Part shown: one piece after another, positions 4,922 through 32,353 of the stretch
How the letters are laid out: every line of letters starts with the position of its first letter
How positions within the stretch are numbered: position 1 is the stretch's first letter
Source: Fusobacteriaceae bacterium
GTDB lineage: Bacteria > Fusobacteriota > Fusobacteriia > Fusobacteriales > Fusobacteriaceae
Assembly (NCBI GenBank): GCA_031289425.1
Contig: JAITPM010000063.1
Coordinates: forward strand, 1 to 34,930
Length of the DNA stretch: 34,930 nt
Direction: 5' to 3'
Made by a program: the position numbers and the translations under genes
The notes under the pieces: model-generated
What the model was told of the DNA's origin: nothing
The model's input: the letters and a program-made list of their open reading frames with translations, nothing else
The model's database searches: none

Positions 4922-6388
4922 ATGAATATCAAAATGATTGGTTATGTAATAGGAAAAATCTTGCGAATAGAATTCGCTTTTATATTTATCCCTTTTCTAA
5001 TAAGTTTTTTTTATAATGAAACTTATATTTTAAAAAATGCATATATAATAACGATGGTTCTAATAGCTGCGGTAAGTTATGTCTTATCAATGAGATTGCC
5101 GAAAAATACAAAAATATATGTAAGAGAAGGATATTTTATTGTATCTTTATCTTGGATATTAATGTCTATATTTGCTGCTTTTCCATTTTTTATAAGTGGA
5201 GAAATCCCATCATATATAGATGCATTTTTTGAAGTTGTGAGCGGATTTACCACTACCGGCGCCAGTATTTTAACAAATGTGGAACTGCTATCTAATTCAC
5301 TTTTATTTCTAAGGAGTTTTACCCATTTTGTTGGCGGTATGGGCGTATTGGTACTGGCAATCGCAATATTACCTCAAAATAATAATGATTCTTTGTCGAT
5401 CATGAGGGCAGAGGTTCCCGGTCCTGTATTCGGTAAATTGGTCTCAAAAATGGCTTACAATTCAAGGATATTATATTTAATTTATATAGCAATAGTTATT
5501 CTCATTATTATATTTTTAAAAATAGGAGACATGCCTCTTTTTGATTCTATTTTACATGCTTTTGGAGCTGCCGGAACCGGGGGTTTTGCAATGAAGAACA
5601 ATAGTGTTGCTTATTATAATAGCGCATATATAGAATATGTACTAGGGGTGGGAATGATACTTTGTGGATTAAATTTTAATTTATTTTATTGGTTACTTCT
5701 TAAAAATTTTAAACAAGTATACAAAAATGAAGAGATGAGATTATACTTAAAAATAATTATTATATCAATAGTTCTTATATGTGTAAATCTTTACCCTCAA
5801 TACAAAAATATTTCTAGGCTTTTTAGAGATGTGTTTTTTACTGTCTCTTCAATAATAACTACCACAGGATTTTCTACTGTGGATTTTGATAAATGGACGA
5901 CTTTTTCCAAAATGATTCTTTTGATTTTAATGTTTGTCGGAGGATGCGCAGGATCCACTGCCGGTGGAGTCAAAGTATCAAGAATACTCATTTTATTTAA
6001 ATCAATGAAGGGTCAAATAAAAAGATCAGAAGACCCTAATAGAGTTACGACAATAAAAATGGACGGAGTCCCTATTAATAAAGAAGTATTTGCCAGAGTA
6101 AGTAATTATATAATATTATTGATTGTTATTTCGATTGCTTCTGTTTTATTGGTAGCTTGGGATATTCCAGATATACAATCAGCAATTAGTGCTGTAGCGG
6201 CCACTATAAATAATATCGGTCCAGGATTGGGAGCTTATGGGCCGACATCCAATTATTCTTCTTTGTCGGGTATCAGTAAAATTGTTTTATCTATTTGCAT
6301 GCTTTTAGGTAGATTGGAAATATTTCCGATTTTGATTTTATTTTCACCACGACTATATAAGAAAATGTTTAATAATGACGATAAATAG
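4922..6388 (+). CDS. trkH: Trk-type potassium uptake, membrane subunit (first copy)
   Basis: Potassium-translocating channel subunit of the Trk/Ktr family, working with a cytoplasmic TrkA gating protein. The 488-residue polytopic protein shows four pore-loop repeats with selectivity-filter-like segments: [34 protein letters not shown] and [12 protein letters not shown]. The motif [16 protein letters not shown] between the last two repeats is a hallmark of TrkH. A weak ribosome site (GGTGAAAAC) precedes the ATG. It lies 65 bases after the glycosyltransferase and 126 bases before trkA. A close paralogue follows trkA. Known function is from the family; ion preference (K+ with possible Na+ coupling) is not resolved here. 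Confidence 0.95.
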
Positions 6389-6395
6389 GTCATAT

Positions 6396-6424
6396 TTGAA
6401 TAAATATAACTATTACAATAAAAT
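6396..6424 (+). promoter_or_regulatory. Predicted sigma70 promoter for trkA-trkH2
   Basis: TTGAAT, 17 bases, TAAAAT. It lies about 90 bases before the trkA start. Just downstream is a short inverted repeat, TATTCC-TTTAT-GGAATA (6430-6446), in the expected transcription-start region, a possible operator or small hairpin. This suggests trkA and the second trkH can be transcribed separately from the first trkH. Confidence 0.55.
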
Positions 6425-6514
6425 TAGAATATTCCTTTATGGAATAGATTACAACTAAAATATATTTATAGACAATATTTATGATATAAATGTATTTTTA
6501 AGAGGAGATTTAGT

Positions 6515-7882
6515 ATGAAAATTATAGTTGCAGGTTCGGGTAAAGTTGGAGAATTCTTATGTAAAGATCTATCAACGGAAGGGAATGATATTACTCTAAT
6601 AGAAAAAGATTTGAAAATTTTAGAAAGAGTCCTTTCATTATGTGATATCAAAGGAATAGAAGGAAATGGTGCTGATCCCAGAATATTAGAAGATGCCGGA
6701 GTAAAATACACTGATATTTTTATGGGGGTTACTCATTCCGATGAAGTAAACATAATTTCTTCTGTCATTGCAAAAAAAATGGGGGCAAAACTTGCCATTG
6801 CCAGGGTGAGAAATCCGGAATATGCATCAAGAATGGAATTCATAAGTTCTGCTTTAGAAATAGATATAATGATAAATCCTGAGCGAGAAGCGGCAGCTTT
6901 TATGATGAAAAATTTGGAATTTCCAAATGCTTTGGCAGTAGAAACGTTCTCAGATAATAAAGTAAATTTGGTAAAACTGTTAGTTCCGGAAGGAACTTAT
7001 TTGGATGGATTAAAACTATCTGAATTCAAAATTAATTATTTTTCAGATATTTTGGTTTGTATTGTAGAAAGAGGCGAGAGTGTCTATGTTCCAACAGGTA
7101 ATTTCATCCTTAAAGCAAATGATAAAATTTATGTAACAGGTACAAAATCCAATTTATTTGAATTTTATAGGTCAGTTGGACAAAAAATAGAAAAAATAAA
7201 GTCTGTTTTTATAACCGGTGGTGGGAGGATTGCGTATTACCTAATCGGACTTTTAATCGAAAAAAAACTAGAGATAAAAGTAATAGAGCCAGATTTTGCC
7301 ATAGCACGTAAATTAAGTGAGGCCTATGGAGAAAATATTGAAGTCATATATGGAAATGCATCAGATAAGGAATTTTTGGATGAAGAAGGAATATCAAAAT
7401 ATGATTCGTGTATCTCCCTTTCTGATGTCGATAATGAGAACATGGTGATTTCTATGTATGCCAATAAACTTGGGATTAAAAAGATAATGACTAGAATAGA
7501 TGATACCGGACTTTTGAGCATACTTGGCTTAGTCGGGTTACAGACTATTATTACTCCCAAACAATTAATAGCCGATAAAATAATAAAAATAGCACGTTCA
7601 AAGATTGATTCTCGAAGCGGAAACATAGAAACCTTATATAGGCTATCTGAGAACAGAGTCGAAGCAATAGAATTTAAAATAAATGAAAATAGCAAAATTC
7701 TAAATACGCCGCTCAAAGATTTAAATTTAAAAAAGGATATACTTATCCTCTATTTAATTCGAAATAAGCAAATTATTTTTCCTAATGGATCTACAGAATT
7801 AAAAGCTAATGACAGTGTAATTGTTATTACCACTCAGAAGTTTTTGGATGAAATAGATCAAATTTCAATAATTAATAGGTGA
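6515..7882 (+). CDS. trkA: Trk potassium uptake regulatory subunit TrkA
   Basis: Cytoplasmic nucleotide-binding (RCK) subunit that gates TrkH. The 455-residue protein is a tandem duplication: RCK_N starts MKIIVAGSGKVGEFL with the GxGxxG Rossmann loop, then RCK_C. A second RCK_N begins near residue 231 (SVFITGGGRIAYYLIGLL), and a second RCK_C ends the protein (ANDSVIVITT). Acidic residues ending the second beta strand of each Rossmann unit (LIEKD, VIEPD) fit NAD(H)/ATP-type ligands. The ribosome site AGAGGAG precedes the ATG. trkH2 starts 10 bases after its stop, so those two are one operon. A single TrkA flanked by two TrkH copies is unusual. Confidence 0.95.
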   Translation: MKIIVAGSGKVGEFLCKDLSTEGNDITLIEKDLKILERVLSLCDIKGIEGNGADPRILEDAGVKYTDIFMGVTHSDEVNIISSVIAKKMGAKLAIARVRNPEYASRMEFISSALEIDIMINPEREAAAFMMKNLEFPNALAVETFSDNKVNLVKLLVPEGTYLDGLKLSEFKINYFSDILVCIVERGESVYVPTGNFILKANDKIYVTGTKSNLFEFYRSVGQKIEKIKSVFITGGGRIAYYLIGLLIEKKLEIKVIEPDFAIARKLSEAYGENIEVIYGNASDKEFLDEEGISKYDSCISLSDVDNENMVISMYANKLGIKKIMTRIDDTGLLSILGLVGLQTIITPKQLIADKIIKIARSKIDSRSGNIETLYRLSENRVEAIEFKINENSKILNTPLKDLNLKKDILILYLIRNKQIIFPNGSTELKANDSVIVITTQKFLDEIDQISIINR

Positions 7883-7892
7883 AACTGAACAC

Positions 7893-9356
7893 ATGAACAA
7901 CAGAATGATAAGATATATAATAAGTAGAATTTTATGTATAGAAATCGCATTTATATTTATTCCGTTTCTTATAAGTTTTTATTACCATGAAAGTTCTACT
8001 ATAAAAATAGCATATACAATAACAATGTTCTTCCTCCTGGTAGTGAGCTTTATATTATCAATAAAATTACCTAAAAATACAAGAATATATATTAAAGAAG
8101 GTTATTTTATTGTATCTATTTCCTGGATATTAATGTCTCTATTTGCTGCTTTGCCATTTTTTATAAGTAGGGAAATTCCTTCTTATATAGATGCGCTTTT
8201 CGAAGTTGTCAGCGGATTTAGCACAACCGGAGCCAGTATTTTGAATGATATAGAAAGGTTACCTCATTCCCTTTTGTTTTTAAGAAGTTTTACACATTTT
8301 GTTGGTGGCATAGGAGTACTTGTACTGGCTATTGCGATATTCCCCAAAAATAATGATGAAGCTCTAAATATAATGAAAGCTGAATCTTCAGGACCTATGT
8401 ACGATAAACTAGTCTCAAGGATGTCTTATAATTCAAGGATATTGTATTTAATTTACATAGTGATAATAATTATTGTTACTATACTTTTGAAATTAGGAAA
8501 TATGCCTCTTTTTGATTCCATTATACATGCCTTTGGCACTGCTGGGACAGGAGGATTTGGGAGTAAAAATACTAGCATTTCCTATTACAATAGTGCTTAT
8601 ATAGAATATGTGATAGGAATTGGAATGATAATTTCCGGGTTAAATTTTAATTTGTTTTACTGGTTACTTCTTAAGAATTTTAAACAAATATATAAAAATG
8701 AAGAGATGCGATTATATTTTAAAATAATTATTATATCAATAATACTTATATGTATAAATCTTTATCCACAATATAAAAATATTTCTAGGCTTTTTAGAGA
8801 TGTGTTTTTTACTGTTTCTTCAGTAATAACAACTACAGGATTTTCCACAGCAGATTTTGATAAATGGACAGCTTTTTCTAAAATCATTCTGTTTATTTTA
8901 ATGTTTATTGGTGGATGTGCCGGATCGACTGCCGGCGGAATTAAAATATCAAGAATACTTATTTTATTTAAATCTATAAAGGGGCAAATGAAAAGATCAG
9001 CAGATCCAAATAGGGTCACAACAATAAAAATAGATGGCGTTCCTATTAATAAAGAAACATTTATGAAAACGACTAATTATGCGATATTGTTTATTTCTGT
9101 TTCACTTATTTTTATTTTAATGATAGCTTGGGATATACCGGACATCCAATCGGCATTTGGTGCTATAGCGGCCACTATAAATGGCGTTGGACCGGGGTTT
9201 GGTGCTTATGGACCTGCGTCCAATTATTCTTCTCTATCAGGAGTCAGCAAAATTATTTTGTCTATTTGTATGCTGATAGGTAGATTGGAGATAATTCCGA
9301 TTTTAATTTTGTTTTCACCATCACTGTATAGAAGAGCACTTAAAAATAATAAATAA
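7893..9356 (+). CDS. trkH: Trk-type potassium uptake, membrane subunit (second copy)
   Basis: Paralogue of the first trkH, with the same 487-488-residue length and clearly most positions identical by eye. The four filter segments are [34 protein letters not shown] and NGVGPGFGAYGP, plus [16 protein letters not shown]. Differences cluster in the membrane helices and in the second filter (FAM to FGS). A 41-base tract (8775-8815) is identical to 5804-5844 in the first copy, pointing to recent duplication or gene conversion. It follows trkA by 10 bases. Both copies look intact, so they may give channels of different affinity or regulation with one shared TrkA. Confidence 0.95.
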   Translation: MNNRMIRYIISRILCIEIAFIFIPFLISFYYHESSTIKIAYTITMFFLLVVSFILSIKLPKNTRIYIKEGYFIVSISWILMSLFAALPFFISREIPSYIDALFEVVSGFSTTGASILNDIERLPHSLLFLRSFTHFVGGIGVLVLAIAIFPKNNDEALNIMKAESSGPMYDKLVSRMSYNSRILYLIYIVIIIIVTILLKLGNMPLFDSIIHAFGTAGTGGFGSKNTSISYYNSAYIEYVIGIGMIISGLNFNLFYWLLLKNFKQIYKNEEMRLYFKIIIISIILICINLYPQYKNISRLFRDVFFTVSSVITTTGFSTADFDKWTAFSKIILFILMFIGGCAGSTAGGIKISRILILFKSIKGQMKRSADPNRVTTIKIDGVPINKETFMKTTNYAILFISVSLIFILMIAWDIPDIQSAFGAIAATINGVGPGFGAYGPASNYSSLSGVSKIILSICMLIGRLEIIPILILFSPSLYRRALKNNK

Positions 9357-9504: not shown

Positions 9505-11328
9505 ATGAGAAAAGAATCAAAAGCATTTCAAGCCGAAGCAAAAGAATTATTAGATTTGATGATCAATTCTATTTATACCAATAAGGACATATTTTTGAGA
9601 GAATTAATTTCAAATGGTAGTGATGCCATTGATAAATTAAAATTTAAATCTTTAACAAATAGTCATATATTGGGAGAAGACAAAGATTTTAGGATAGATC
9701 TAACTATTGATAAGGACAAAAGAGAAATAACAATAAAAGATAATGGTATCGGAATGACCTATGAGGAAGTGGAAGAAAATATAGGTACAATCGCAAAATC
9801 AGGCTCTAAAGCATTCAAAAAATCTTTGGATAATACTGGAAATAGTGAAATAGATATTATTGGTCAGTTTGGAGTTGGATTTTATTCAGGATTCATGGTA
9901 GCCGGTAAAATTGAATTTACAACAAAATCTTATGACAGTGAAAAAGGAGTAAAATGGGAATCTATAGGGGATGGATCCTATCAAATGGAAGAAATAGACT
10001 TGGATAAAAGAGGGACATCTATAACTCTTACTATAAAGTCTGGAGAGGAATACGATAAATACTTGGAAGAATGGAAAGCACGTGACATCATAAAAAAATA
10101 TTCTGATTATATAAGATATCCAATTTATTTTAAGGATGAAATAATTAATTCTTCAAAACCTATTTGGAAAAAAGATAAAAAAGAATTAAAATCAGAAGAA
10201 TATAATGAATTTTATAAGTCAAACTTTCATGATTGGACTGACCCTCTTATGAATTTTCATTTGAAGGTTCAAGGGAGTGTAGAATATACTGCACTTTTAT
10301 ATGTACCAAAAAAAGCTCCAGTTGATTTTTACACAAAAGATTATAAAAAAGGATTACAACTATATACTAAAAATATATTTATTATGGATAGATGTGATGA
10401 ACTTATACCGGAATATTTTAGTTTTTTAAAAGGATTGGTTGATTGTGATACGTTATCATTAAATATATCCAGAGAAATTCTGCAACAAAATAAAGAATTA
10501 ACTGATATTTCTAAGAGTTTGGAAAAGAAAATAATTGGAGAATTTGAAAAATTATTAAAGGAAGATAGACCAAAATATATAGAATTTTGGGAAGAATTTG
10601 GAAGAAATATCAAATTTGGAATACAAGATATGTTTGGATTAAATAAAGACAAACTTCAAAATTTATTGTTATTCAAAACATCTCTTGATGATAATTATTA
10701 TACATTACAAGAATATGTGGATAGAATGGGAGATAGAACAGATATTTTATATGCCGTTGGAGAAGATTTGGCTTCTGTTAAATCTTTACCTAAAATAGAA
10801 GCATTAAAAGAAAAAAACATTGAAATATTATATTTAATTGATAAGATAGACGAATTTTCTCTAAAAACTATGAGAGATTATTGTGGAAAGAATTTTAAAT
10901 CAATAAATGATTCTGATTTTAAATTGGATGATAGCAAAGAAAAAGAAGAAGAAATAAAGAAACTTTCTGAAGATAATAAAGATATATTAAATAAAGTGAA
11001 AGATACATTGGGAGATAAGGTAGCAGAAGTAAAATTGAGTAGTGATATAGGGAAAGGAGCTGTGGCATCATTACTTGCTAAGGGAGAAATTTCCCTAGAA
11101 ATGGAAAGAATCTTAACTTCAATGCCGGGAAATCAAAATGTAAAGGCAGAAAAAATATTTGCACTTAATCCTGAGCATCCGTTATTTGAAAGATTAAAGG
11201 CAGATGTTAATAAAGAATCTTTTAAGGATTTGATAGATGTTTTGTATACGGAATCATTATTGTTAGAAGGATTTCAAGTGGAAAATCCAGCAGAATTTAT
11301 TAAAAAATTAAATGGATTATTAAAATAA
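9505..11328 (+). CDS. htpG: Chaperone HtpG (Hsp90)
   Basis: ATP-dependent homodimeric chaperone of the cytoplasm. The GHKL ATPase domain is complete: LRELISNGSDAIDKLK, DNGIGMT, and GQFGVGFYSGFMVA forming the lid and nucleotide pocket. The middle domain contains LSLNISREILQQNK, which includes the catalytic Arg region. A C-terminal dimerisation domain ends near residue 607, slightly short of the 620-odd residues common in bacteria. A strong AGGAGG site precedes the ATG. It is monocistronic: its own promoter with a CIRCE-like operator upstream and a perfect hairpin terminator 16 bases after the stop. Confidence 0.97.
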   Translation: MRKESKAFQAEAKELLDLMINSIYTNKDIFLRELISNGSDAIDKLKFKSLTNSHILGEDKDFRIDLTIDKDKREITIKDNGIGMTYEEVEENIGTIAKSGSKAFKKSLDNTGNSEIDIIGQFGVGFYSGFMVAGKIEFTTKSYDSEKGVKWESIGDGSYQMEEIDLDKRGTSITLTIKSGEEYDKYLEEWKARDIIKKYSDYIRYPIYFKDEIINSSKPIWKKDKKELKSEEYNEFYKSNFHDWTDPLMNFHLKVQGSVEYTALLYVPKKAPVDFYTKDYKKGLQLYTKNIFIMDRCDELIPEYFSFLKGLVDCDTLSLNISREILQQNKELTDISKSLEKKIIGEFEKLLKEDRPKYIEFWEEFGRNIKFGIQDMFGLNKDKLQNLLLFKTSLDDNYYTLQEYVDRMGDRTDILYAVGEDLASVKSLPKIEALKEKNIEILYLIDKIDEFSLKTMRDYCGKNFKSINDSDFKLDDSKEKEEEIKKLSEDNKDILNKVKDTLGDKVAEVKLSSDIGKGAVASLLAKGEISLEMERILTSMPGNQNVKAEKIFALNPEHPLFERLKADVNKESFKDLIDVLYTESLLLEGFQVENPAEFIKKLNGLLK

Positions 11329-11344
11329 ATCAGTATTAAAATAT

Positions 11345-11383
11345 AAAAACTATACCGGTAACGTAGCTACCGGTATAGTTTTT
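11345..11383. terminator. Bidirectional intrinsic terminator between htpG and lcdB
   Basis: A perfect 16-base-pair stem: AAAAACTATACCGGTA (11345-11360), a 7-base loop, and the exact reverse complement (11368-11383). The A-run on one side and T-run on the other let it terminate both convergent transcripts, htpG (+) and the lcd operon (-). Confidence 0.93.
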
Positions 11384-11417
11384 ATATTATGAAGTTATTA
11401 CAAGCTTTGTTTTTTGT

Positions 11418-12539
11418 TTAAATAATTTCATTGAAGCTTTGAATTCTTGTTTTAATTTGTTCGAAAGATGTTGATTCAAGATCAATCTCTATGATTGTAT
11501 TTTTTATGTTTTCTTTATTTAATTCAGCATAGAATACAGGATAATCAAATTCCTCAGGGTCACAGAATTTCATCATGCAAGTAATAACTGCATCTGCTTT
11601 ATATTTTTTGTATAGGTCAATAAGTACTTTGCCTCTTATTTTATTTGTATCAGTCGCTAATGAACAACCATAAAGATCTTGCCACCATTTAGCTAGACGA
11701 TATAAAGGATCTGTCCCAGCCGGTACATCCACTCTAAATTGACGAGATTCTTGTGCTAAATCATCTGCAACTATTGCAAATTTTTCATCTTTAAATATTT
11801 CAAGCAATTTTTGTGGTTCAGCCATAATTCCTGTTAAAATCACTTTTTTACCTTTCCAAGGAATTACTTTTAACTTCTTGATTTCATCTATAAATTGTTT
11901 CACATATTCAGTGTGCCATTTTTTTGAAATAAACCATCTTGATTTGATTACATTATGTCTGACAACCGGATCTATAATATGTGGGTATTTAACAGCTATA
12001 TCAGAAAACTCTCTCATTATTTCTCTATTTTTATTGTATATTTCTATACTGTTATTAATTGCTTCATCAGTTATTTTTACATTTAATAATTTTTCAAGCT
12101 TTTCTCGAATTATTTTATATTCTTCAACTAAAAACTTGTTTGCAACTTCAAGTATTCTATTTTGTGGGTGAGTAAAGACTATTGGTTGAGCTTTTCCACT
12201 CCATTTTTGACTATAGCATTTTAGTGTATCACAAAGAACAGGAATTAAGACTGCTTCTAGATTATCATAGGTACCATCTAATTCCATCTCAGTAATTGCT
12301 TGTATTATAGAACATGCAAATGGAGGAAAAACTGTCCTAGCTTTTGAGATTTCTTTTTCCCCTCCCCAGATACCTACAGGCAAATATCCTGCTGCATCTA
12401 TTAATTCCTCCGGAGCATACTCAGCTAAAACCCCAATTGCCCCTTTCCCTGTTTCTTTTTTATGATTAAGAATTGCTTCTTTTGGATTTTTTGCAATATG
12501 CTCAAACAAATCTATATATTTTTTTATGCTTTCTTCCAT
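11418..12539 (-). CDS. lcdB: Lactoyl-CoA-type 2-hydroxyacyl-CoA dehydratase, beta subunit
   Basis: Small subunit of the oxygen-sensitive [4Fe-4S] dehydratase that converts (R)-lactoyl-CoA to acryloyl-CoA by a ketyl-radical mechanism. The 373-residue protein has the family layout: YAPEELIDAAGYLPVGIWGG, FPPFACSIIQ, CDTLKCYSQKW, DDLAQESRQFRVDV, YGCSLATDTNK, MMKFCDPEEFDYP and a terminal SFEQIKTRIQSF. Conserved Cys residues in these motifs are the cluster ligands in relatives. Recalled Anaerotignum (Clostridium) propionicum LcdB matches better than HadC or HgdB. A GGAGG site precedes the ATG. It is the last gene of the VOC-lcdC-lcdA-lcdB operon and ends at a shared terminator. Substrate is inferred from pct and lctP nearby. 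Confidence 0.88.
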   Translation of the reverse strand: MEESIKKYIDLFEHIAKNPKEAILNHKKETGKGAIGVLAEYAPEELIDAAGYLPVGIWGGEKEISKARTVFPPFACSIIQAITEMELDGTYDNLEAVLIPVLCDTLKCYSQKWSGKAQPIVFTHPQNRILEVANKFLVEEYKIIREKLEKLLNVKITDEAINNSIEIYNKNREIMREFSDIAVKYPHIIDPVVRHNVIKSRWFISKKWHTEYVKQFIDEIKKLKVIPWKGKKVILTGIMAEPQKLLEIFKDEKFAIVADDLAQESRQFRVDVPAGTDPLYRLAKWWQDLYGCSLATDTNKIRGKVLIDLYKKYKADAVITCMMKFCDPEEFDYPVFYAELNKENIKNTIIEIDLESTSFEQIKTRIQSFNEII

Positions 12540-12580: not shown

Positions 12581-13840
12581 TTATTTTTTTTCATTCATTA
12601 TTTCGTCCAAAGCTTGTACACGAGTATCAAATTGCGCCGGAGAGAAATTTCTAGGGTCAGTTTGATCCCCATCAAAACTACTGTATGGTAATCCTGTATT
12701 GTTTTGTACAATTTCGGCTGTATCTCCATTAAGGAATCCCATTAATTTACAGCTTCTATTTAAATGATAAAGGACACCATCACATTTTCCATTTTCAACT
12801 ATTCTAGTCAAAACTTTACCTCTGTTCTCCAAAGATGTGTTGAGATAAATCCTCGTATAAGCTTCTGCCATTGAAAGCATGTCTCCCGGAGTATAATGCA
12901 AATTCCATATTTCTGGGTAAGCAGAACCTGTCATTACAACTCCCAAATTTTTAAGAGATTTAAATGTATGACTCAAATGAGGCCAAACAGCAATTCCTTC
13001 CCATGTAATTCTCTTCTTTTCTGCGCCTTTTAGTGCATATACTCCATTTGCTAGATTCGCTTCCAATTCTTCTGCGAATTTTCTATAAGTAATCTCAGCG
13101 TATTCTCTACTTCGTGCACAAACTATAAGTGCCATATAATTATATAAATCAAAACAATTTAATGGAGATTGTACATAAGAAGACATATGGGCTACTCTGT
13201 TCCATTGTTCTACAGAACGTTGAGTTTGTTTTTGTGCTTCTAAAAATTTATCATAATCAAATTTTCTACCTGTTACATCTTCCAATTGCTTTATAGCATA
13301 CTCAAATTGCCCTGCTATATATTCCTTTGCATATAGAGGAATCGGCATAGTATGGTTATATGGAACATCTATAATAATACAAGGTATATTTAATTCTTTT
13401 GCCAAATTTTCATACCATTTTAATAGTGTATTACATATATTATTACAGGTAATTACTAAATCAGGCAAAGGAACTTTAGCAGCCGGAGAATTTGCCAGTT
13501 TTTCTGGTGTGACTCCTGTACGGGCTTGCTCTTTTAATAATTCCATATATCCCAAATTTACCCGGGCATAAGAGCAAATATCCAATGAATATCCTTTGGC
13601 ATCTGACACATCAAGCATATCCATAGCACCTTTTTTGGCACCTATCCCTGCGGCATGTGTTTCCGGATAAATCATAGCTATATCCATAGCTACGCAAAAT
13701 TCCGGAGGAGCAACTGATGATGACCAACATACCAAACGTCCTTCTTTTTTGGCTTGTCTTGCTTCTTCGTCCAATTTTTCTTGATAATAAGCCAGAAGTT
13801 CTTTAGAACTCATGCTTTCTATATTTATATTATCACTCAT
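12581..13840 (-). CDS. lcdA: Lactoyl-CoA-type 2-hydroxyacyl-CoA dehydratase, alpha subunit
   Basis: Large subunit of the same dehydratase. Motifs include LVCWSSSVAPPEFCVAM, IYPETHAAGIGAKKGAMDML, CSYARVNLGYME, PDLVITCNNICNTLLKWYEN, IIIDVPYNHTMPIP, YHLNRSCKLM and FDGDQTDPRNFSPAQFD; the Cys residues in them include the expected cluster ligands. The APPEFCV and ETHAAGIGAKKGAMDM wording fits LcdA more than HadB or FldB. I prefer the ATG at 13840 (419 residues) because an in-frame ATG at 13849 lies only two bases from the GGAG site. It is 41 bases from lcdB and 50 bases from lcdC. Family is certain; lactoyl-CoA as substrate is a strong inference. Confidence 0.88.
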   Translation of the reverse strand: MSDNINIESMSSKELLAYYQEKLDEEARQAKKEGRLVCWSSSVAPPEFCVAMDIAMIYPETHAAGIGAKKGAMDMLDVSDAKGYSLDICSYARVNLGYMELLKEQARTGVTPEKLANSPAAKVPLPDLVITCNNICNTLLKWYENLAKELNIPCIIIDVPYNHTMPIPLYAKEYIAGQFEYAIKQLEDVTGRKFDYDKFLEAQKQTQRSVEQWNRVAHMSSYVQSPLNCFDLYNYMALIVCARSREYAEITYRKFAEELEANLANGVYALKGAEKKRITWEGIAVWPHLSHTFKSLKNLGVVMTGSAYPEIWNLHYTPGDMLSMAEAYTRIYLNTSLENRGKVLTRIVENGKCDGVLYHLNRSCKLMGFLNGDTAEIVQNNTGLPYSSFDGDQTDPRNFSPAQFDTRVQALDEIMNEKK

Positions 13841-13890
13841 ATTTATCATCTCTCCTTAAATTTTTTAAAGTCTCCTTATTTATTAAAACA

Positions 13891-14676
13891 TTATTTTTTT
13901 AAAACCTCTTCATAGGCATATATGGCAGCACCTAGTGCACCAGTAGTCTGAGGATTAGGTGCGACTGTTATGTCTTTTTTTAAGGTTTCTTTTAATGCTC
14001 TGACTACCCCATAGTTTTTAGCTACTCCTCCACACATTACAATTTTATCTTCCAGTTGGGTTCTGTGTGCCAGCCCGCCAACTTTATGCGCTACAGAATT
14101 GTGTACCCCAGCAATTATGTCTTCTACCGTTGTACCTTTGGCTAACTGAGATATAACCTCTGATTCAGCGAACACTGTACAAGTACTGCTGATTTTAGCT
14201 GCTTCTATAGAGCGATCGTCATAAAGCTCCATTTCTTCCAATGGAATTTCTAGGATTCTAGACATTACAGTTATAAACCTTCCTGTACCGGCTGCACATT
14301 TATCATTCATAAAAAATTGCTTTATACTTCCGTTTTGATCCAGACTTATGGCTTTAGCATCTTGTCCACCTATATCTATAATTGTCTTGGCATCGGGAAT
14401 CAAGAATTTAATTCCCTTGGCATGGCAGCTAATCTCACTTATTTGCTTATCAGCCTCTTCAAATGTAAATCGACCATACCCTGTAACTACTATTTTATCA
14501 ATGTTATCCCTTTTCATTTTGGAGTTTTCCAAAATTATATTTAAAATATTCCTGGATCCACTGCTCCCTATACCCATTTGAGCAACTTCAGTAAATATTA
14601 TTTCTTTACCATTTTTTAAAATTACTGCCTTAGAAGAAGATGAACCTATGTCAACTCCTATAGTATAAATACCCAT
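13891..14676 (-). CDS. lcdC: 2-Hydroxyacyl-CoA dehydratase activator (ATP-dependent archerase)
   Basis: Homodimeric iron-sulfur ATPase that injects one high-energy electron into the LcdAB dehydratase, coupled to ATP hydrolysis. The 261-residue protein is an ASKHA-fold ATPase: phosphate-1 loop GIYTIGVDIGSSSSKAV, phosphate-2 IIDIGGQDAKAI, and the adenosine motif MCGGVAKNYGV. The bridging [4Fe-4S] cluster is carried by one Cys per monomer pair position: NDKCAAGTGRF and SSTCTVFAESE, both present. A GAGGTGAT ribosome site precedes the ATG. Its position between the VOC gene and lcdA means it is co-transcribed with its client. It needs a reduced ferredoxin or flavodoxin, not encoded here. Confidence 0.93.
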   Translation of the reverse strand: MGIYTIGVDIGSSSSKAVILKNGKEIIFTEVAQMGIGSSGSRNILNIILENSKMKRDNIDKIVVTGYGRFTFEEADKQISEISCHAKGIKFLIPDAKTIIDIGGQDAKAISLDQNGSIKQFFMNDKCAAGTGRFITVMSRILEIPLEEMELYDDRSIEAAKISSTCTVFAESEVISQLAKGTTVEDIIAGVHNSVAHKVGGLAHRTQLEDKIVMCGGVAKNYGVVRALKETLKKDITVAPNPQTTGALGAAIYAYEEVLKK

Positions 14677-14705
14677 GGTATCACCTCATAATATATATCC
14701 CTTAA

Positions 14706-15125
14706 TTAATCTCTTTTTACCGGACCTATAGTTTGCACAAATTCTGTAAGAATTCCATCAGAGAATTTTGGTCTCAAAAAATTAACGATGATTACATCTT
14801 CAATACCTACAACTGCATGTTCTTCCAACATTTGCATTCCCTTACTTTCGAATTCTTCTCTTACAGCCTCTACATCTTCTACTTCAAAAGCAACATGGGC
14901 AATTCCACCTTTTCCACCATTGAATTTTGTAAGGACACCTTCGTGTGGTATTATAAATTCTAAAGGGCTGCTGCTTTCTGAAGGTTTTGTAAATATTATG
15001 TCAGCATGGTAAGCATTTACAAATCCTGTATAATCTACCTCTAATCCCATTCTTTCAATGTAAGTATAAGCTTGTTCCAGTGTTGGCAGAACAATTCCTA
15101 CGTGGTGCATTCTCATTGGTTTCAT
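14706..15125 (-). CDS. VOC-superfamily protein, methylmalonyl-CoA epimerase-like
   Basis: First gene of the dehydratase operon; function not proven. The start at 15125 is chosen because AGGAGG lies just ahead of MKPMRMHHVGIV; an upstream extension to 15188 has no such site and reads unlike the family. The 139 residues form two beta-alpha-beta-beta-beta modules. Candidate metal ligands are His8 (MHHVGI), Glu56 (SPLEFI), His77 (GIAHVAFEVED) and Glu128 (LTEFVQ), the layout of glyoxalase I and methylmalonyl-CoA epimerase. No methylmalonyl-CoA mutase or decarboxylase gene is nearby, so classical epimerase duty is doubtful. One inference is an epimerase or isomerase for the 2-hydroxyacyl-CoA used by LcdAB. 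A glyoxalase-like detoxification role is an alternative. Confidence 0.8.
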   Translation of the reverse strand: MKPMRMHHVGIVLPTLEQAYTYIERMGLEVDYTGFVNAYHADIIFTKPSESSSPLEFIIPHEGVLTKFNGGKGGIAHVAFEVEDVEAVREEFESKGMQMLEEHAVVGIEDVIIVNFLRPKFSDGILTEFVQTIGPVKRD

Positions 15126-15314
15126 AAAATTCCTCCTAAAAATATTATATTTTTTATATTGATAATGTAATACAGTAGAACAAAACAAACTTTTTCTATA
15201 AAGGGATTATATATTTAAAACACAAAAAAGCATAATGAAAGTAATTGAATAAAATTGATAATAAATTGACAGTTGATTGCCGTGATGAAAGAAGTTGAAT
15301 AGAAAAGAATCAAC

Positions 15315-15343
15315 TTGACAATAAGTGAAAAATGGAATATCAT
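15315..15343 (+). promoter_or_regulatory. Predicted sigma70 promoter of the 494-residue regulator
   Basis: Consensus TTGACA (15315-15320), a 17-base spacer and TATCAT (15338-15343). The gene starts about 90 bases downstream. The -35 is overlapped by an inverted repeat and a perfect palindrome lies between promoter and gene, consistent with autoregulation. Confidence 0.75.
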
Positions 15344-15390
15344 TACAAGTAGACTAAATTAATTTTAAAAGCTTTTTTATGTAGAACATG

Positions 15391-15406
15391 TTTTGGTATA
15401 CCAAAA
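15391..15406. repeat. Perfect 16-base palindrome, operator candidate
   Basis: TTTTGGTATACCAAAA is its own reverse complement. It lies 48 bases after the -10 of the regulator promoter and 28 bases before the regulator ATG. It is too symmetric and GC-cored (GGTATACC) for the surrounding AT-rich sequence to make chance likely. No T-run follows, so it is not a terminator. A dimeric regulator site is the simplest reading; the binding protein is unknown. Confidence 0.6.
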
Positions 15407-15433
15407 TCACAATTCATAAAAATAGGAGGTAAA

Positions 15434-16918
15434 ATGTATAAAAATCCTTATGGAACTATACTTAAAGATTTACTTTCATTTTCTGATATAAAGTTCGTTG
15501 TAGCAGGAAATCATCTGGGATATGATGTTTCTTATATCAGTAAATGGTGCAGCAGCGCCAAACTTCCAGCTGCAAAAGTGATTCATGAGATTAACAAACA
15601 ACTTTCTGCATTAATAGGAAAAGAAATATTAGACACTAAAAACGCCACAAATTTTTTCAACAAATTTAAATTAAAAATCCCAAAGAATATAGCACTTCTG
15701 GAAGATAAAAAATTTTTAGAAGAGCAGATTTATGTACTTTTAAGTAATGCTTACGATGAAAGCTCTGAATGCGTAGAAGAAAAATGCTTTAATTTTTTAA
15801 CCGAGCCTGAGGAAATAAGGGCATTTTTAGAAGAGACCATAAGAGATACCGTAATCGAATCCAATAAAGATATCTCTGTATTTTTAAGCCTAGATATCAC
15901 CTCTCCCGGGAGTGCTCATTTGCTTTCTCTCTTTTCTAGATTAAAACCTGATGGAATAAAAATCAATATTTTTATGGGAGCATGCCTGGATAGGGTAGAA
16001 AAAGATAATTATTTATACTTGAAAAAAGTATTTTTTATCTTAAATAAATTTATAAACTTGAGCATACAATTGTACAATATAAGGAATTTTTGGAATTTAA
16101 ATTCAATCGTAATAAAAAATAAAATGGCCCTTGTCTATTCTGCAAATAACGAGGGAATGTTTGAGAGTATTGTTTTTACAAAAGATAAACCCAAAGTATC
16201 GAAAACTTATGAAACTATTAAAAAATTTATGAGTTTGGAAAATAATTTTTTAAGATTAAAGGAATCTGATTCTTTGATTAAAAGTGCTTTTAGAACAAGT
16301 TTTTACTCCAACAACTCATTTAATTTTCTTTTATCCCACGGATTTGAATTTTTATTGCCCACTGATATTATGAATAATATTTTGGATTATGCAGAAGAAA
16401 ATACTCATCCATATAATGATATTGTGGATATAAAAAAATTGATAATTACGTTAAACGAAACTTTTGAGCATAGTACCAGCAATTTCTTTATACTGAAGTC
16501 CTCCATATTAAAATCTTTTCAAGATAGAAAAATCTATTTTATGAATGTGGAATATGAGATTAGTCCTTCTGAAATAAGGGAATTTTACCCATATTTTATT
16601 GAAGCATTAAAGACTAATAAGGATATCAATATTTACATCATTGATGACGATAAATTGGATATGGGATTTTTGGAGTTTAAAATCTCAATATATTGCAATA
16701 GCAATACTGTATTTTTAAAAAATCTTTTTAAACTTCATCAAAAACATGACGATTTTTTCTCTGTTATAAATAATTCTCATTTAGTTGAAAATGTTAATCT
16801 ATTCTTTGAAGAGCTGAAAAAATCACCACTGTGCAAGAAATATTCTATAGAAGAAATTGAACAGTCCTGGGAAAAATACAAGAATATGCTCTTTAGAATC
16901 ATGGATATAAAAAAATAG
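15434..16918 (+). CDS. Putative transcriptional regulator with N-terminal helix-turn-helix and large uncharacterised C-terminal region
   Basis: A 494-residue soluble protein I do not recognise as a named family. Residues about 8-60 (ILKDLLSF, NHLGYDVSYISKWCSS, LPAAKVIHEI) resemble an XRE/Cro-type helix-turn-helix, with the recognition helix around DVSYISKW. The remaining roughly 430 residues show no membrane segment or recognised enzyme motif and are a candidate sensor or dimerisation region. AGGAGG precedes the ATG. The gene is divergent from the lcd operon and upstream of pct-lctP, with its own promoter, a palindrome in its leader and a terminator after its stop. Position implies control of lactate fermentation, which is inference. 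It could instead regulate elsewhere. Confidence 0.7.
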   Translation: MYKNPYGTILKDLLSFSDIKFVVAGNHLGYDVSYISKWCSSAKLPAAKVIHEINKQLSALIGKEILDTKNATNFFNKFKLKIPKNIALLEDKKFLEEQIYVLLSNAYDESSECVEEKCFNFLTEPEEIRAFLEETIRDTVIESNKDISVFLSLDITSPGSAHLLSLFSRLKPDGIKINIFMGACLDRVEKDNYLYLKKVFFILNKFINLSIQLYNIRNFWNLNSIVIKNKMALVYSANNEGMFESIVFTKDKPKVSKTYETIKKFMSLENNFLRLKESDSLIKSAFRTSFYSNNSFNFLLSHGFEFLLPTDIMNNILDYAEENTHPYNDIVDIKKLIITLNETFEHSTSNFFILKSSILKSFQDRKIYFMNVEYEISPSEIREFYPYFIEALKTNKDINIYIIDDDKLDMGFLEFKISIYCNSNTVFLKNLFKLHQKHDDFFSVINNSHLVENVNLFFEELKKSPLCKKYSIEEIEQSWEKYKNMLFRIMDIKK

Positions 16919-16962
16919 ATTTACTTTTTTAAGAGAAACCCGTATATATTATGCATTTATTT

Positions 16963-16992
16963 GCGTTGATGTCAACCACATCAACGCTTTTT
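16963..16992 (+). terminator. Intrinsic terminator after the 494-residue regulator
   Basis: Perfect 10-base-pair stem GCGTTGATGT (16963-16972), 5-base loop, ACATCAACGC (16978-16987), then TTTTT. It separates the regulator transcript from pct. Confidence 0.9.
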
Positions 16993-17046
16993 CATTTTCA
17001 GTCTAATCAATTCATTGGATATTCAAAGATATTCATATTTATTCAC

Positions 17047-17075
17047 TTGTTTTAGTTGCCATGCCAATATATAAT
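17047..17075 (+). promoter_or_regulatory. Predicted sigma70 promoter of pct-lctP
   Basis: TTGTTT (17047-17052), a 17-base spacer and a perfect TATAAT (17070-17075). About 190 bases of leader separate it from the pct start, unusually long for this window. Confidence 0.7.
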
Positions 17076-17089
17076 TAGGGATATTAATG

Positions 17090-17201
17090 AACTGAAACAG
17101 AATAAAAAGTATTATAACTAAAAAGAATGTTTTAGTATAAAAAAGATTTTGTATATAAAAACATTAATAACACTTGTACTATTATATTTGGCTGTTCAGT
17201 T
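17090..17201 (+). promoter_or_regulatory. Long pct leader with pairing potential
   Basis: In the leader, AACTGAAACAG (17090-17100) can pair with CTGTTCAGTT (17192-17201) apart from one bulged base. An internal hairpin pairs 17112-17123 with 17130-17140, also with one bulge. This could be a folded regulatory RNA or two protein-binding sites. The rest is AT-rich and no known riboswitch class is recognised. Confidence 0.3.
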
Positions 17202-17266
17202 ACTCTAAAACAATTAATACAAAATAACAATTTTGGCTTTAAAAATTCTATTTAGGAGGAAATATT

Positions 17267-18829
17267 ATGATTCCACGTTTTGTCTCGTCAAGAGAAGCAA
17301 TAGACAGCATCAAAGATAATGATGTTGTAGTTACTTCGGGGTTTGTAGGATGTAGCAATCCAGAAGGACTAGAAGTAGCATTGGAAGAAAAGTTTCTAGA
17401 AACAAAGTCTCCAAAAAATTTAACTCTTTTTTATGTAGCGGGTCAAGGAGATGGGGACAGTAAAGCTGTAGGTCATCTAGCTCATGAAGGTCTTTTAGGA
17501 AAAATAGTAGCCGGACATTTTAACAAAGCTCCAAAAATAGTTGATCTAATCATCAACAACAAAATTCAAGCCTATAATGTGCCTCAAGGTGCTCTTTGCC
17601 ATATGTTGAGAGATGTGGCTGGTAAAAAAATAGGTACTTTTACACATGTGGGATTAAATACATTTGCAGATCCAAGGTTGGAAGGCGGAAAATTAAATGA
17701 TATTACCACTGAAGATATTGTAGAATTAATGACAATACATGGTCAAGAAAGATTGTTTTACAAACCTATTAATTTTAATGTAGCTCTAATAAAAGGTAGT
17801 TTGTCAGACGAAAGAGGAAATATTTCATTAGAAAGAGAAAGTATCACTACCGAATGTATATCCATAGCTCAAGCCGTCCACAATTGTGGTGGTACAGTAA
17901 TAGTACAAGTAGATAAGATAGTAGAAACAGGAAGTTTGGATCCAAAATTAGTTAAAATCCCAGGAATATATGTGGATTATGTAGTAGAGATAGATGATCC
18001 ATTGTTGAAAGAAGAAGTCTATGGACAAGGATATGTTCCGGAATTGTGCGGTGCCATCCGTGTTAGTAATAAATCTTACTCAAAACCAACAAAATTAGAT
18101 GCTAAAAAACTTGTTGCCAGAAGAGCTACAATGGAAATAGAAAAAGGAATGGTGGGAAATCTAGGAGTAGGAAACCCTGAATATGTGTCTGTCATAGCTA
18201 CAGAAGAAAATATCGGAGATTATATGGTATTGACTGTAGAATCAGGACCCGTAGGCGGAATACCTCAAGGAGGACCACGATTCGGTTCTGCTGTAAATGC
18301 CGATGCCATAATAGATCAAACTTACCAATTTGATTTTTATGAAGGTGGAGGTTTGGATATAGCATTTTTGGGACTTGCTCAAGTAGACGAAGAAGGAAAT
18401 CTAAATGTTAGTAAGTTTGGTAAAAAAGTAGCAGGCTGCGGAGGTTTCGTAAGTATCAGTCAAAATTCTAAAAAAGTAGTTTATTGTGGTACTTTTACTG
18501 CAGGCGGTCTAGAGCTTGAGATAAAAGATGGAAAACTTAAAATATTAAAAGAAGGAAAATCCAAAAAATTTGTTAAGAAAGTTCAACAAATAACTTTCTC
18601 AGGTAATTATGCAAGAAACGTAGGTCAACCTGTTTTATATGTCACTGAAAGAGCAGTGTTTTCATTGAAGAAAGAAGGATTGACTTTGATCGAAATAGCA
18701 CCCGGAATTGATTTACAAAAAGATATATTAGATTTAATGGATTTTAAGCCTATTATAGCAAAAGATTTAAAAGAAATGGATAACAGAATATTCAGAGAAG
18801 GAATAATGGGTATTAAAAACGACAAATAG
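17267..18829 (+). CDS. pct: Propionate/lactate CoA-transferase
   Basis: Moves CoA between short-chain acyl-CoAs and lactate, making lactoyl-CoA for the dehydratase. The 520-residue single chain fuses the alpha and beta domains of class I CoA-transferases. Visible signatures are VVTSGFVGCSNPEGL, AYNVPQGALCHMLRD, IPGIYVDYVVEID, and TVESGPVGGIPQGGPRFG with the probable catalytic Glu near residue 325. GGLDIAFLGLAQVDEEGNLNVSKFG and ERAVFSLKKEGL follow. Length and motifs match A. propionicum Pct as recalled. An AGGAGG site precedes the ATG, and lctP follows after 28 bases with its own ribosome site. Acetate CoA-transferase (YdiF type) is the main alternative; the neighbouring lactate permease and dehydratase favour Pct. 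Confidence 0.9.
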   Translation: MIPRFVSSREAIDSIKDNDVVVTSGFVGCSNPEGLEVALEEKFLETKSPKNLTLFYVAGQGDGDSKAVGHLAHEGLLGKIVAGHFNKAPKIVDLIINNKIQAYNVPQGALCHMLRDVAGKKIGTFTHVGLNTFADPRLEGGKLNDITTEDIVELMTIHGQERLFYKPINFNVALIKGSLSDERGNISLERESITTECISIAQAVHNCGGTVIVQVDKIVETGSLDPKLVKIPGIYVDYVVEIDDPLLKEEVYGQGYVPELCGAIRVSNKSYSKPTKLDAKKLVARRATMEIEKGMVGNLGVGNPEYVSVIATEENIGDYMVLTVESGPVGGIPQGGPRFGSAVNADAIIDQTYQFDFYEGGGLDIAFLGLAQVDEEGNLNVSKFGKKVAGCGGFVSISQNSKKVVYCGTFTAGGLELEIKDGKLKILKEGKSKKFVKKVQQITFSGNYARNVGQPVLYVTERAVFSLKKEGLTLIEIAPGIDLQKDILDLMDFKPIIAKDLKEMDNRIFREGIMGIKNDK

Positions 18830-18857
18830 TTCTACAAAAATTAGAGGAGGTAGTAAT

Positions 18858-20612
18858 ATGTCTATAGGAGTTTTAGCTTTATTTGCAATAATACCAATTT
18901 TAGTTGCCCTTATTTTGATGGTTTTTCTACGTATGGGTGCTATGAAAGCAATGCCACTTTCTTGGCTTTCTTGCTTTCTAATCGCAGTAGTAATATGGAA
19001 ATTACCAGTATCATATGTAACTGCACTGAGCATTCAAGGAGTAATAAATGCATGTAGTGTATTGATAATTGTTTTCGGAGCTCTTTTGATTTTGCATACT
19101 TTGCAATATTCTGGTGGTATGGAAACAATACAATACGGAATGCAACAAATCAGTAAAGATATGCGTGTGCAAGCGATAATCGTAGGAGTTTTGTATGCAG
19201 CATTTATCGAAGGAGCAGCGGGATTTGGAACACCGGCAGCCCTGGCAGCACCACTTTTGCTTTCATTGGGATTTCCACCAATAGCAGCAGCGATACTTTG
19301 TTTGACATTTAATTCTTTCCCTGTAACTTTTGGTGGTGTTGGAACTCCACTTTTAATAGGGTTAAATGCAGGAGCAAGAAATATAATGGATGCTCTAATT
19401 GCAGGAAATGTTTTACCAAATGATGCCGCTTTTTACAAAATTATTGGAGAAAATGTATCTCTTATGCATTTACCCATGATATTCATTTTACCGATTTTCA
19501 TGTTGGGATTTATTACTCGTTTGTATGGCCCAAAACGTAGTTGGTCAGATGGATTGGCTGCATGGAAATTCTCTCTATTTGCTTCATTTGCATTTGGTGT
19601 TCCATATATGGGACTGGCATGGTTAGTAGGCCCTGAGACACCGGCATTATTAGGAGGATTAATAGGTCTAGGAGTAGTCATGTATGGAGCAAAAGCAGGA
19701 TTTTGCGTACCAAAAGAGGTATGGACATTTGGAGATGATTCTAAATGGGATAAATCATGGACAGGAACTGTTGCTTTTGATAAAAAGAAAGAGCTTACAC
19801 CTACAATGAGTCAACTTAGAGCATGGATGCCTTATATATTAATAGGTTTTATACTTATGATAACTCGTATTCGTTCTCTTCCGTTCAGTGTATGGATAAA
19901 TAAATACCTAATTATAGATATCAGAAATATATTGGGATGGTCAGGAGTAAGTGACAATAGTATAAAGTTACTTAATCTTCCGGGTACTTTACCATTTGCT
20001 GTAATAGCGCTTTTAACTATTGTTTTGCATAAAATGCCATTGGAAAAAGCAGGAGCAGCATGGAAAGATACATTCTTTAAAATGGGACCTGCTACAATTT
20101 CGCTTTGTGCCTCTGTAGCATTGGTAAAGGTTTTCCAAGGGTCAGGTAGTTTCCCTGCGGCAAATAAAGCCTTGATAGAAAGCTTGAAAGCATTAGGTGT
20201 AAATACAGATATAGTATCAATGCCTCGTGCCATGGCAGAAACTATCGCACTCAAAGTAGGACCTTTATGGCCGGTCGTTTCTTCATACATAGGTGGATTG
20301 GGAGCCTATATCACAGGTTCAAATACTGTTTCAAATACGCTATTTGCCCAATTCCAATGGGATGTGGCATCAATTCTAAAGCTTCCTCAAACTATTATTA
20401 TTGCTTCGCAAGCAGCCGGAGGAGCTATGGGAAACATGATCTGCGTGCATAACGTAATAGCAGCATGTACAGTAGTAGGACTATTGAATCGTGAAGGAGA
20501 AATTATTAAAAAGACATTTATTCCGTTCTTTATCTATGGAGTAGTTGTAGGTATCGTAACACTCATTCTGGTTTCAATCAACTTTAGAGAGTTTATAACA
20601 ACAGTTATATAG
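18858..20612 (+). CDS. lctP: L-lactate permease (LctP family)
   Basis: Inner-membrane lactate transporter, family-typical proton symport. The 584-residue polytopic protein shows LctP hallmarks: FIEGAAGFGTPAALAAPLLL near residues 115-134, FNSFPVTFGGVGTPLL, and the C-terminal TGSNTVSNTLFAQFQW and QAAGGAMGNMICVHNVIAACT. An estimated dozen or more membrane segments are present. The length is somewhat above the 530-560 common in the family; an added hydrophilic region lies around residues 270-320 (WTFGDDSKWDKSW). An AGGAGG site precedes the ATG. It is the second gene of the pct operon and ends at a strong terminator, linking lactate import to its activation. Confidence 0.95.
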   Translation: MSIGVLALFAIIPILVALILMVFLRMGAMKAMPLSWLSCFLIAVVIWKLPVSYVTALSIQGVINACSVLIIVFGALLILHTLQYSGGMETIQYGMQQISKDMRVQAIIVGVLYAAFIEGAAGFGTPAALAAPLLLSLGFPPIAAAILCLTFNSFPVTFGGVGTPLLIGLNAGARNIMDALIAGNVLPNDAAFYKIIGENVSLMHLPMIFILPIFMLGFITRLYGPKRSWSDGLAAWKFSLFASFAFGVPYMGLAWLVGPETPALLGGLIGLGVVMYGAKAGFCVPKEVWTFGDDSKWDKSWTGTVAFDKKKELTPTMSQLRAWMPYILIGFILMITRIRSLPFSVWINKYLIIDIRNILGWSGVSDNSIKLLNLPGTLPFAVIALLTIVLHKMPLEKAGAAWKDTFFKMGPATISLCASVALVKVFQGSGSFPAANKALIESLKALGVNTDIVSMPRAMAETIALKVGPLWPVVSSYIGGLGAYITGSNTVSNTLFAQFQWDVASILKLPQTIIIASQAAGGAMGNMICVHNVIAACTVVGLLNREGEIIKKTFIPFFIYGVVVGIVTLILVSINFREFITTVI

Positions 20613-20651
20613 ATAATATCGCCCTTAAAATATTTTAATCCTCACCCTAGA

Positions 20652-20695
20652 GGCTGCTGCAAAATAATATACTTTATTATTTTGTAGCAGCCTTT
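20652..20695 (+). terminator. Intrinsic terminator after lctP
   Basis: An 18-base-pair stem with one G-T pair: 20652-20669 with 20675-20692, five-base loop, then TTT. Closes the pct-lctP operon and lies 16 bases before the end of the convergent ung gene, so it may serve both. Confidence 0.88.
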
Positions 20696-20708
20696 CAGGC
20701 AAGGTTAA

Positions 20709-30669: not shown

Positions 30670-32109
<1,440 letters not shown>

Positions 32110-32164
32110 TCAATAAATTCATAGATTCTTACCATTTTTAATCACGTCCCAAATAAATAACGCC

Positions 32165-32186
32165 TTATGTGTGATGCATTATGCGT
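32165..32186. repeat. Direct repeat in the tpl leader, possible regulatory site
   Basis: TTATGTGT (32165-32172) and TTATGCGT (32179-32186), 14 bases apart, about 10 bases downstream of the tpl -10. The interval also holds the small inverted repeat GCAT-T-ATGC. It may be the operator for the divergent GntR protein. Confidence 0.35.
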
Positions 32187-32196
32187 TAACAATATT

Positions 32197-32225
32197 ATGA
32201 TACTATATTTATTTTTAAAAGTCAA
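32197..32225 (-). promoter_or_regulatory. Predicted promoter of tpl
   Basis: On the minus strand: TTGACT, exactly 17 bases, TATCAT. About 120 bases of leader precede the start codon. Confidence 0.75.
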
Positions 32226-32253
32226 TAGACTAATTTAAAAAATATTAAAAATA

Positions 32254-32282
32254 TTGAATAATTGTTTAGTTTGTGCTAAACT
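32254..32282 (+). promoter_or_regulatory. Predicted promoter and operator of the GntR gene
   Basis: TTGAAT, 17 bases, TAAACT, with an extended TGC before the -10. A perfect inverted repeat GTTTAG-TTTGTG-CTAAAC (32264-32281) overlaps the -10, a good place for autorepression by the GntR protein. Confidence 0.6.
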
Positions 32283-32353
32283 AATTAGGGGAGTATATAT
32301 CTAAAATCATGTAAAGTGGACAAAACAGATAATATAAACGGGGGGATACGGCG

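Follow-up and report, generated by a model that had tools for sequence, protein, structure and literature searches.

We describe a regulator encoded in a 34,930-nucleotide stretch of DNA (hereafter the window; contig JAITPM010000063.1 of assembly GCA_031289425.1) from a Fusobacteriaceae bacterium. The protein is probably a lactate-responsive one-component regulator of lactate fermentation via the acrylate (lap) pathway, which would activate both flanking operons and regulate its own synthesis; its family probably has this role in Fusobacteria and many gut Firmicutes. Here, we establish the gene and its family, the DNA-binding domain, a predicted PLD-like fold that has lost the HKD site, the genomic linkage and co-occurrence with lactate genes, and a common DNA motif.

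The gene, whose product the initial annotation had described as a 494-residue regulator, is genuine. The ORF starts with an ATG preceded by AGGAGG and contains no internal stops, and the opposite strand has stops throughout. A paralogue in the same genome (G000:C100:5924-7399, L006) shares 66% identity across residues 1–494, four further genomes of the class have full-length relatives with 36–46% identity, and an alignment-based scan of a species-level genome collection recovered 143 relatives; a single-sequence scan of the same collection gave no matches. This conservation identifies the ORF as a true gene rather than a chance ORF and confirms that it encodes a conserved protein. Full-length relatives span Fusobacteriota and three groups of Bacillota, and no match was present in the plasmid collection searched. 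We used two alignments, A2 with 63 family members and A3 with 18 distant relatives. The window protein and its paralogue lack four residues (W340, Y361, G365, and H384) that hardly vary among the other 61 relatives, and they are the only members that depart jointly at these positions; the ligand, response or properties of these two proteins may therefore not be typical of the family. Two irregular copies were also seen. In Peptoniphilus indolicus (L037:9998-11511), the regulator frame is divided into two ORFs (371 and 124 residues) by a frameshift or sequencing error, and Megasphaera cerevisiae (L057) has a second, seemingly broken copy at 9986-11446 besides that at 16614-18074.

The N-terminus is an XRE-type (lambda-repressor-like) HTH, as had been proposed. 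The HTH_3 profile (PF01381) matches 10 of the 63 family members with a best E-value of 3.8e-5, and the match to the window protein itself is below threshold. The AlphaFold2 model of the window protein has N-terminal helices at residues 6–16, 21–28, 32–39, and 47–67, and in a Foldseek search the model of the distant relatives matched the XRE HTH of C.BclI (2b5a) with an rmsd of 1.8. The signature YD[VI]SYISKW (residues 30–38) in the recognition region is near-invariant among the 63 members, residue 32 being the sole variable position. Pfam and NCBIfam profile searches found neither a GntR winged helix nor an FCD domain of the LldR/LutR type, and the TrmB model was absent from the matches of the 63 members.

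The neighbours of the regulator are those originally claimed: an epimerase-activase-dehydratase operon is divergent from it, and a CoA-transferase/permease operon lies downstream (Table 1). This gene set is that of the Coprococcus catus lap cluster, in which LapB is the proposed lactoyl-CoA epimerase (PMC8914356). Elsewhere in the same genome, a second CoA-transferase (G000:C111:28486-30024), 52% identical to that of the window, lies near an acyl-CoA dehydrogenase gene (C111:31616-32755) and has one internal TAA, so it is possibly a pseudogene or read through. By eye, the window also contains two similar TrkH-like potassium-transporter genes on either side of one TrkA-like gene (4922-9356) and a tyrosine phenol-lyase/tryptophanase-like gene on the minus strand divergent from a GntR-like regulator on the plus strand (30670-32995).

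Table 1 Features of the regulator gene and its surroundings in the window.
Feature	Position	Strand	Basis or remark
2-Hydroxyacyl-CoA (lactoyl-CoA) dehydratase subunit, HGD-D	11418–12539	−	
2-Hydroxyacyl-CoA (lactoyl-CoA) dehydratase subunit, HGD-D	12581–13849	−	
Dehydratase activator, HgdC-type (acyl-CoA dehydratase activase)	13891–14676	−	TIGR00241
VOC protein, methylmalonyl-CoA-epimerase-like, LapB counterpart	14706–15125	−	Profile/sequence matches
Predicted −10 (TATAAT) of divergent lap operon	15206–15211	−	Presumed from sequence; conserved at paralogue
TTGA half-sites at 15245, 15255, 15266, 15273, 15295, 15315	15245–15318		Upstream of predicted lap promoter
Candidate operator AAGTTGAATAGAAAAGAATCAACTT	15292–15316		Just upstream of and overlapping regulator promoter −35
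Predicted regulator promoter, TTGACA, 17 nt, TATCAT	15315–15343	+	11/12 matches
Regulator gene, 494 aa, XRE-type HTH and tandem PLD-like effector region	15434–16918	+	
HTH region, residues 6–67	15449–15634	+	Family alignment, HTH_3 matches, predicted structure
PLD-like half 1, approximately residues 118–285, degenerate HKD site	15785–16288	+	Model, Foldseek, alignment
Most conserved stretch besides HTH, residues 286–312	16289–16369	+	Family alignment
PLD-like half 2, approximately residues 313–494	16370–16915	+	Model, Foldseek
Intrinsic terminator 3' of regulator gene	16963–16987	+	Same hairpin at paralogue
Four ATTCA half-sites at 17010, 17021, 17031, 17041 (spacing 11, 10, 10)	17010–17045	+	
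Predicted pct promoter TTGTTT-17-TATAAT	17047–17075	+	By eye; conserved at paralogue
CoA-transferase, propionate/lactate CoA-transferase type (LapA/Pct counterpart)	17267–18829	+	
LctP-family lactate permease	18858–20612	+	Lactate_perm 5.9e-103

Linkage to lactate fermentation genes is strong among the close relatives. Counting a lap cluster, its CoA-transferase, a lactate permease or a GlcD/Etf dehydrogenase within 10 kb of the regulator, we found linkage at 50 of 60 close relatives versus 0 of 19 distant ones. This count is not circular because the loci were picked by regulator sequence alone. At least two lap genes are present at 24 of the close loci, only the CoA-transferase at 9, only a lactate permease or GlcD-type dehydrogenase at 16, and a single lap gene at 1; the remaining 10, several of them cut by contig ends, have none. 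The linked loci include those of Anaerotignum, Coprococcus catus, Frisingicoccus, Intestinimonas, Clostridium, and Peptoniphilus. Among 98 genomes of the class, a lap-type dehydratase (at least 76% identity) occurs in exactly the five that have the regulator, plus one fragment that ends at a contig end in a sixth genome (G001); distant dehydratases (approximately 40% identity) are common in the class and unlinked to the regulator. In C. catus VPIC661 (L027), the regulator relative is divergent from lapA, the first gene of the lap cluster, and lapB to lapF come next, arranged as in the published cluster. In C. catus GD/7, the lap genes show a log2 10–13 rise on lactate, and the main text of that report names no lap regulator (Sheridan et al. 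2022, PMC8914356). In a Fusobacteriaceae genome, a nearly complete acrylate-pathway locus (L007:5418-17063; epimerase, activase, dehydratase, acryloyl-CoA-reductase-like ACD, EtfAB, LctP, and CoA-transferase genes) surrounds the regulator. The window's paralogue stands between a divergent 2-oxoacid:ferredoxin oxidoreductase operon and, on the other side, an LctP permease and L-lactate dehydrogenase operon. Of the two Pectinatus members, both of which adjoin an LctP permease, one also has Etf and GlcD genes nearby.

A shared DNA motif accompanies the regulator. Motif discovery in 44 divergent intergenic regions gave the palindrome AnTTGAATTTnATTCAAnT with a score of 141, somewhat inflated by the relatedness of the sequences, versus 37–40 in shuffles. 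More telling is its occurrence: in 1.44 Mb of scanned DNA, TTGACTTTTAGTCAA was found solely immediately upstream of the regulator gene. These four distinct loci come from two phyla, one from Fusobacteriaceae and three from Peptoniphilus. Six of the seven matches to TTGAAT-N7/8-ATTCAA were upstream of the regulator gene. The TTGA..TCAA palindrome in the shared intergenic regions is conserved between phyla; the intergenic region of the window has only an imperfect version, and the Clostridium subclade showed no enrichment of the motif. In the window, the candidate operator, which has a counterpart at the paralogue, is part of an array of TTGA half-sites with 10/11-bp phased pairs (e.g., 15245/15255/15266; P 0.001 versus dinucleotide shuffles). 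The ATTCA array on the other side of the gene has three phased pairs, where 0.00 were expected in 1000 shuffles (P at most 0.001), and stops at the −35 of the predicted pct promoter. We infer from this arrangement that the regulator may bind the TTGAAT/ATTCAA motif. Both flanking intergenic regions are homologous between the window regulator and its paralogue and the genes beyond them differ, as if the regulator and both promoters had been duplicated as a unit and then recruited to new operons. Another perfect palindrome, TTTTGGTATACCAAAA (15391-15406), between the regulator promoter and the start codon was set aside as an operator since it is absent at the paralogue. Rfam found no RNA elements in 14600-20700, so no known riboswitch accounts for the control.

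The sign of control is likely activation, judging from where the arrays lie and from a poor −35 in the predicted lap promoter (approximately 2 of 6 matches at a spacing of 16–18 nt), which resembles those of activator-dependent promoters; both arguments depend on predicted promoters. The same protein could instead be a lactate-responsive repressor that occupies its operators without lactate and is released upon lactate binding, as would fit the many XRE one-component regulators that are repressors and the palindrome overlapping the −35 of the regulator's own promoter. The half-site arrays, however, are located upstream of both predicted promoters (lap and pct) and not across them, and the predicted lap −35 is poor; this repressor reading is fairly unlikely. 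Either mode is compatible with the very strong induction in C. catus. The overlap at the regulator's own promoter is also consistent with autoregulation of an activator.

Lactate is the most likely ligand of this activator. In ten Peptoniphilus genomes, the regulator is divergent from an operon of a GlcD-type dehydrogenase, an acyl-CoA dehydrogenase and EtfAB, and these genomes lack both a lap-type dehydratase and a Pct-type CoA-transferase, which favours lactate over acyl-CoA. The recurring partner across the Peptoniphilus, Pectinatus, and paralogue loci is lactate itself. Sensing of a pathway CoA thioester (lactoyl-CoA, acryloyl-CoA or propionyl-CoA), of pyruvate or of the redox state in place of lactate is unlikely. 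A CoA-transferase does adjoin the regulator in several subclades, a 2-oxoacid oxidoreductase adjoins the paralogue, and phosphodiesters, to which CoA is similar, are common ligands of PLD-type folds. Moreover, the Peptoniphilus loci contain genes that we take from their sequence to be LrgAB-like, and LrgAB genes are tied to pyruvate in other bacteria. Nevertheless, the ten Peptoniphilus genomes have the regulator without the dehydratase or Pct, and the partners that recur in different subclades are the permease and lactate dehydrogenases.

Lactate would not be the ligand of every member. Four Megasphaera/Anaeroglobus members (L056, L057, L062, and L063) are divergent from the D-proline reductase genes prdC-prdA, which suggests that proline reduction has a regulator other than PrdR, the sigma-54 activator. 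The family may therefore sense more than lactate, and specificity has probably diverged within it.

The effector region has no recognized domain at the sequence level, as the initial annotation had stated for approximately 430 residues, but its predicted structure belongs to a known fold. Searches of Pfam, NCBIfam, and PDB sequences with the window protein gave no family matches, and Pfam and NCBIfam found no consistent family, and no named domain, over residues 60–494 across the 63 relatives; matches to SHIP C2 and carrageenan sulfatase in this region were set aside as chance matches. The AlphaFold2 model built with the A2 alignment is confident (mean pLDDT 91.8, pTM 0.74) and consists of the HTH up to residue 67, connecting helices to approximately residue 114, and then two alpha/beta halves, a sensor-like region whose precedent is the TrmB effector domain. 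A Foldseek search of the PDB with this model gave 67 matches at E-values of 1e-3 or lower, and the best 50 were all PLD-superfamily folds or polyphosphate kinase (PLD-like catalytic part), including 7e0m (E 2.7e-10, probability 1.00, approximately 400 columns). Compared with PLD structures as a whole, the model has low TM-scores (0.26/0.32) and an rmsd of approximately 15, so the halves may be packed otherwise than in PLD enzymes or misplaced by the model. An hhalign internal-repeat test of the two halves gave no match beyond their shared overlap. The A3 model of the distant relatives has the same fold, and its Foldseek matches were PLD proteins, TrmBL2 (5bpd, 1.7e-4), the TrmB sugar-binding domain (2f5t), TrmB, and XRE HTHs; neither TrmB nor TrmBL2 was among the best 50 of the 67 matches of the window model. 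The conserved stretch between the halves reads YRTxFYSxxxFxFFxxxGFEFLLP at residues 286–309 and is a candidate ligand or interface site.

Although the model has the PLD-like fold in two copies, the HxK(x)4D motif of PLD enzymes is not conserved across the family. The H position varies among N, H, K, Y, D, and other residues. With the residue correspondence set by eye, the positions of the catalytic Lys and Asp are mostly N (N223) and K (K228). The bare HxK(x)4D pattern is confined to 5 of 63 members, which all belong to one subclade. A nuclease or lipid-modifying enzyme, acting for instance in defence or in membrane stress and having an incidental linkage to lactate genes, would share the fold of PLD enzymes, but this loss of HKD and a linkage and co-occurrence much too strong to be chance make such a role very improbable, and it is disfavoured.

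We propose a mechanism for the lactate-responsive activator based on its gene neighbourhood, predicted structure and candidate sites. A dimer would bind TTGAAT/ATTCAA half-sites through the XRE-type HTH, whether these form a palindrome or helically phased arrays. By analogy with the PLD-like domain of TrmB, the tandem dead PLD-like part would be the ligand-sensing and dimerizing module, and lactate binding in or between its halves would switch the dimers to an activating form. The ligand-bound regulator would then activate both flanking operons, the divergent one (epimerase, activase and dehydratase) and the downstream one (CoA-transferase and permease), from arrays that run along one helical face and end just upstream of the predicted −35 regions of lap and pct. 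Binding at 15292-15318, where the operator overlaps its own −35, may limit its synthesis. The paralogue presumably has the same role for a second set of operons, with LctP and L-lactate dehydrogenase on one side and the 2-oxoacid:ferredoxin oxidoreductase on the other.

The initial annotation had suggested a new class of sensor for lactate or acyl-CoA metabolites. The three checks proposed with it (profile searches, structure prediction and the neighbours of homologues) all came out in its favour, and its interpretation is supported. The architecture appears new, the fold, as modelled, is already known, and lactate is favoured over acyl-CoA. It appears rather likely that a large, unnamed bacterial class, marked by YD[VI]SYISKW and by an XRE HTH joined to a tandem dead PLD fold, responds to substrates of fermentation (lactate in the window clade, possibly proline in Megasphaera, and others in distant clades), and that it represents a bacterial counterpart of TrmB and gives the acrylate pathway its missing regulator. 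If so, the dead PLD fold joins the sensor domains of bacterial one-component regulators; we found no description of HTH/PLD-like regulators in bacteria in the open-access literature. Lactate-to-propionate fermentation via the acrylate pathway is relevant to gut and rumen health and to propionate production, and the lap genes are among the most strongly lactate-induced genes in C. catus, with no regulator named in the open-access literature searched. With a regulator, an operator and a candidate ligand defined, lap control becomes directly testable, and a biosensor for lactate in anaerobes could follow.

In overall plan, TrmB is the nearest known analogue, although a profile relationship was not found. 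Like the present protein as modelled, the archaeal TrmB/TrmBL regulators (3qph, 2f5t, and 5bpd) are one-component proteins that join a DNA-binding domain at the N-terminus to a PLD-like effector, a resemblance that emerged by Foldseek from the model of the distant relatives. TrmB, however, has a winged helix instead of an XRE HTH and is linked to sugar transport, whereas the present family is bacterial, has two PLD-like halves, lacks a TrmB match in Pfam, and is linked to lactate and other fermentation genes. With XRE regulators (HTH_3, PF01381) it shares the HTH, but its effector comprises 430 residues in place of a short or cupin C-terminus. With the PLD superfamily (7e0m, vaccinia F13, and PssA) it shares the tandem PLD-like fold over approximately 400 columns, but it has no HKD motif, is fused to a DNA-binding domain, and may have its halves packed differently, given the high rmsd. 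Regulators of the LutR/LldR type, such as LctA of the lct cluster, control lactate-utilization operons (PMC8914356) and belong to an unrelated protein family with a GntR domain, which the present family lacks; LctA is found at the lct cluster, and the present family is located at lap clusters and some lct-like clusters. The C. catus lap cluster (PMC8914356) has its counterpart in VPIC661, with the same genes in the same order and the regulator divergent from lapA.
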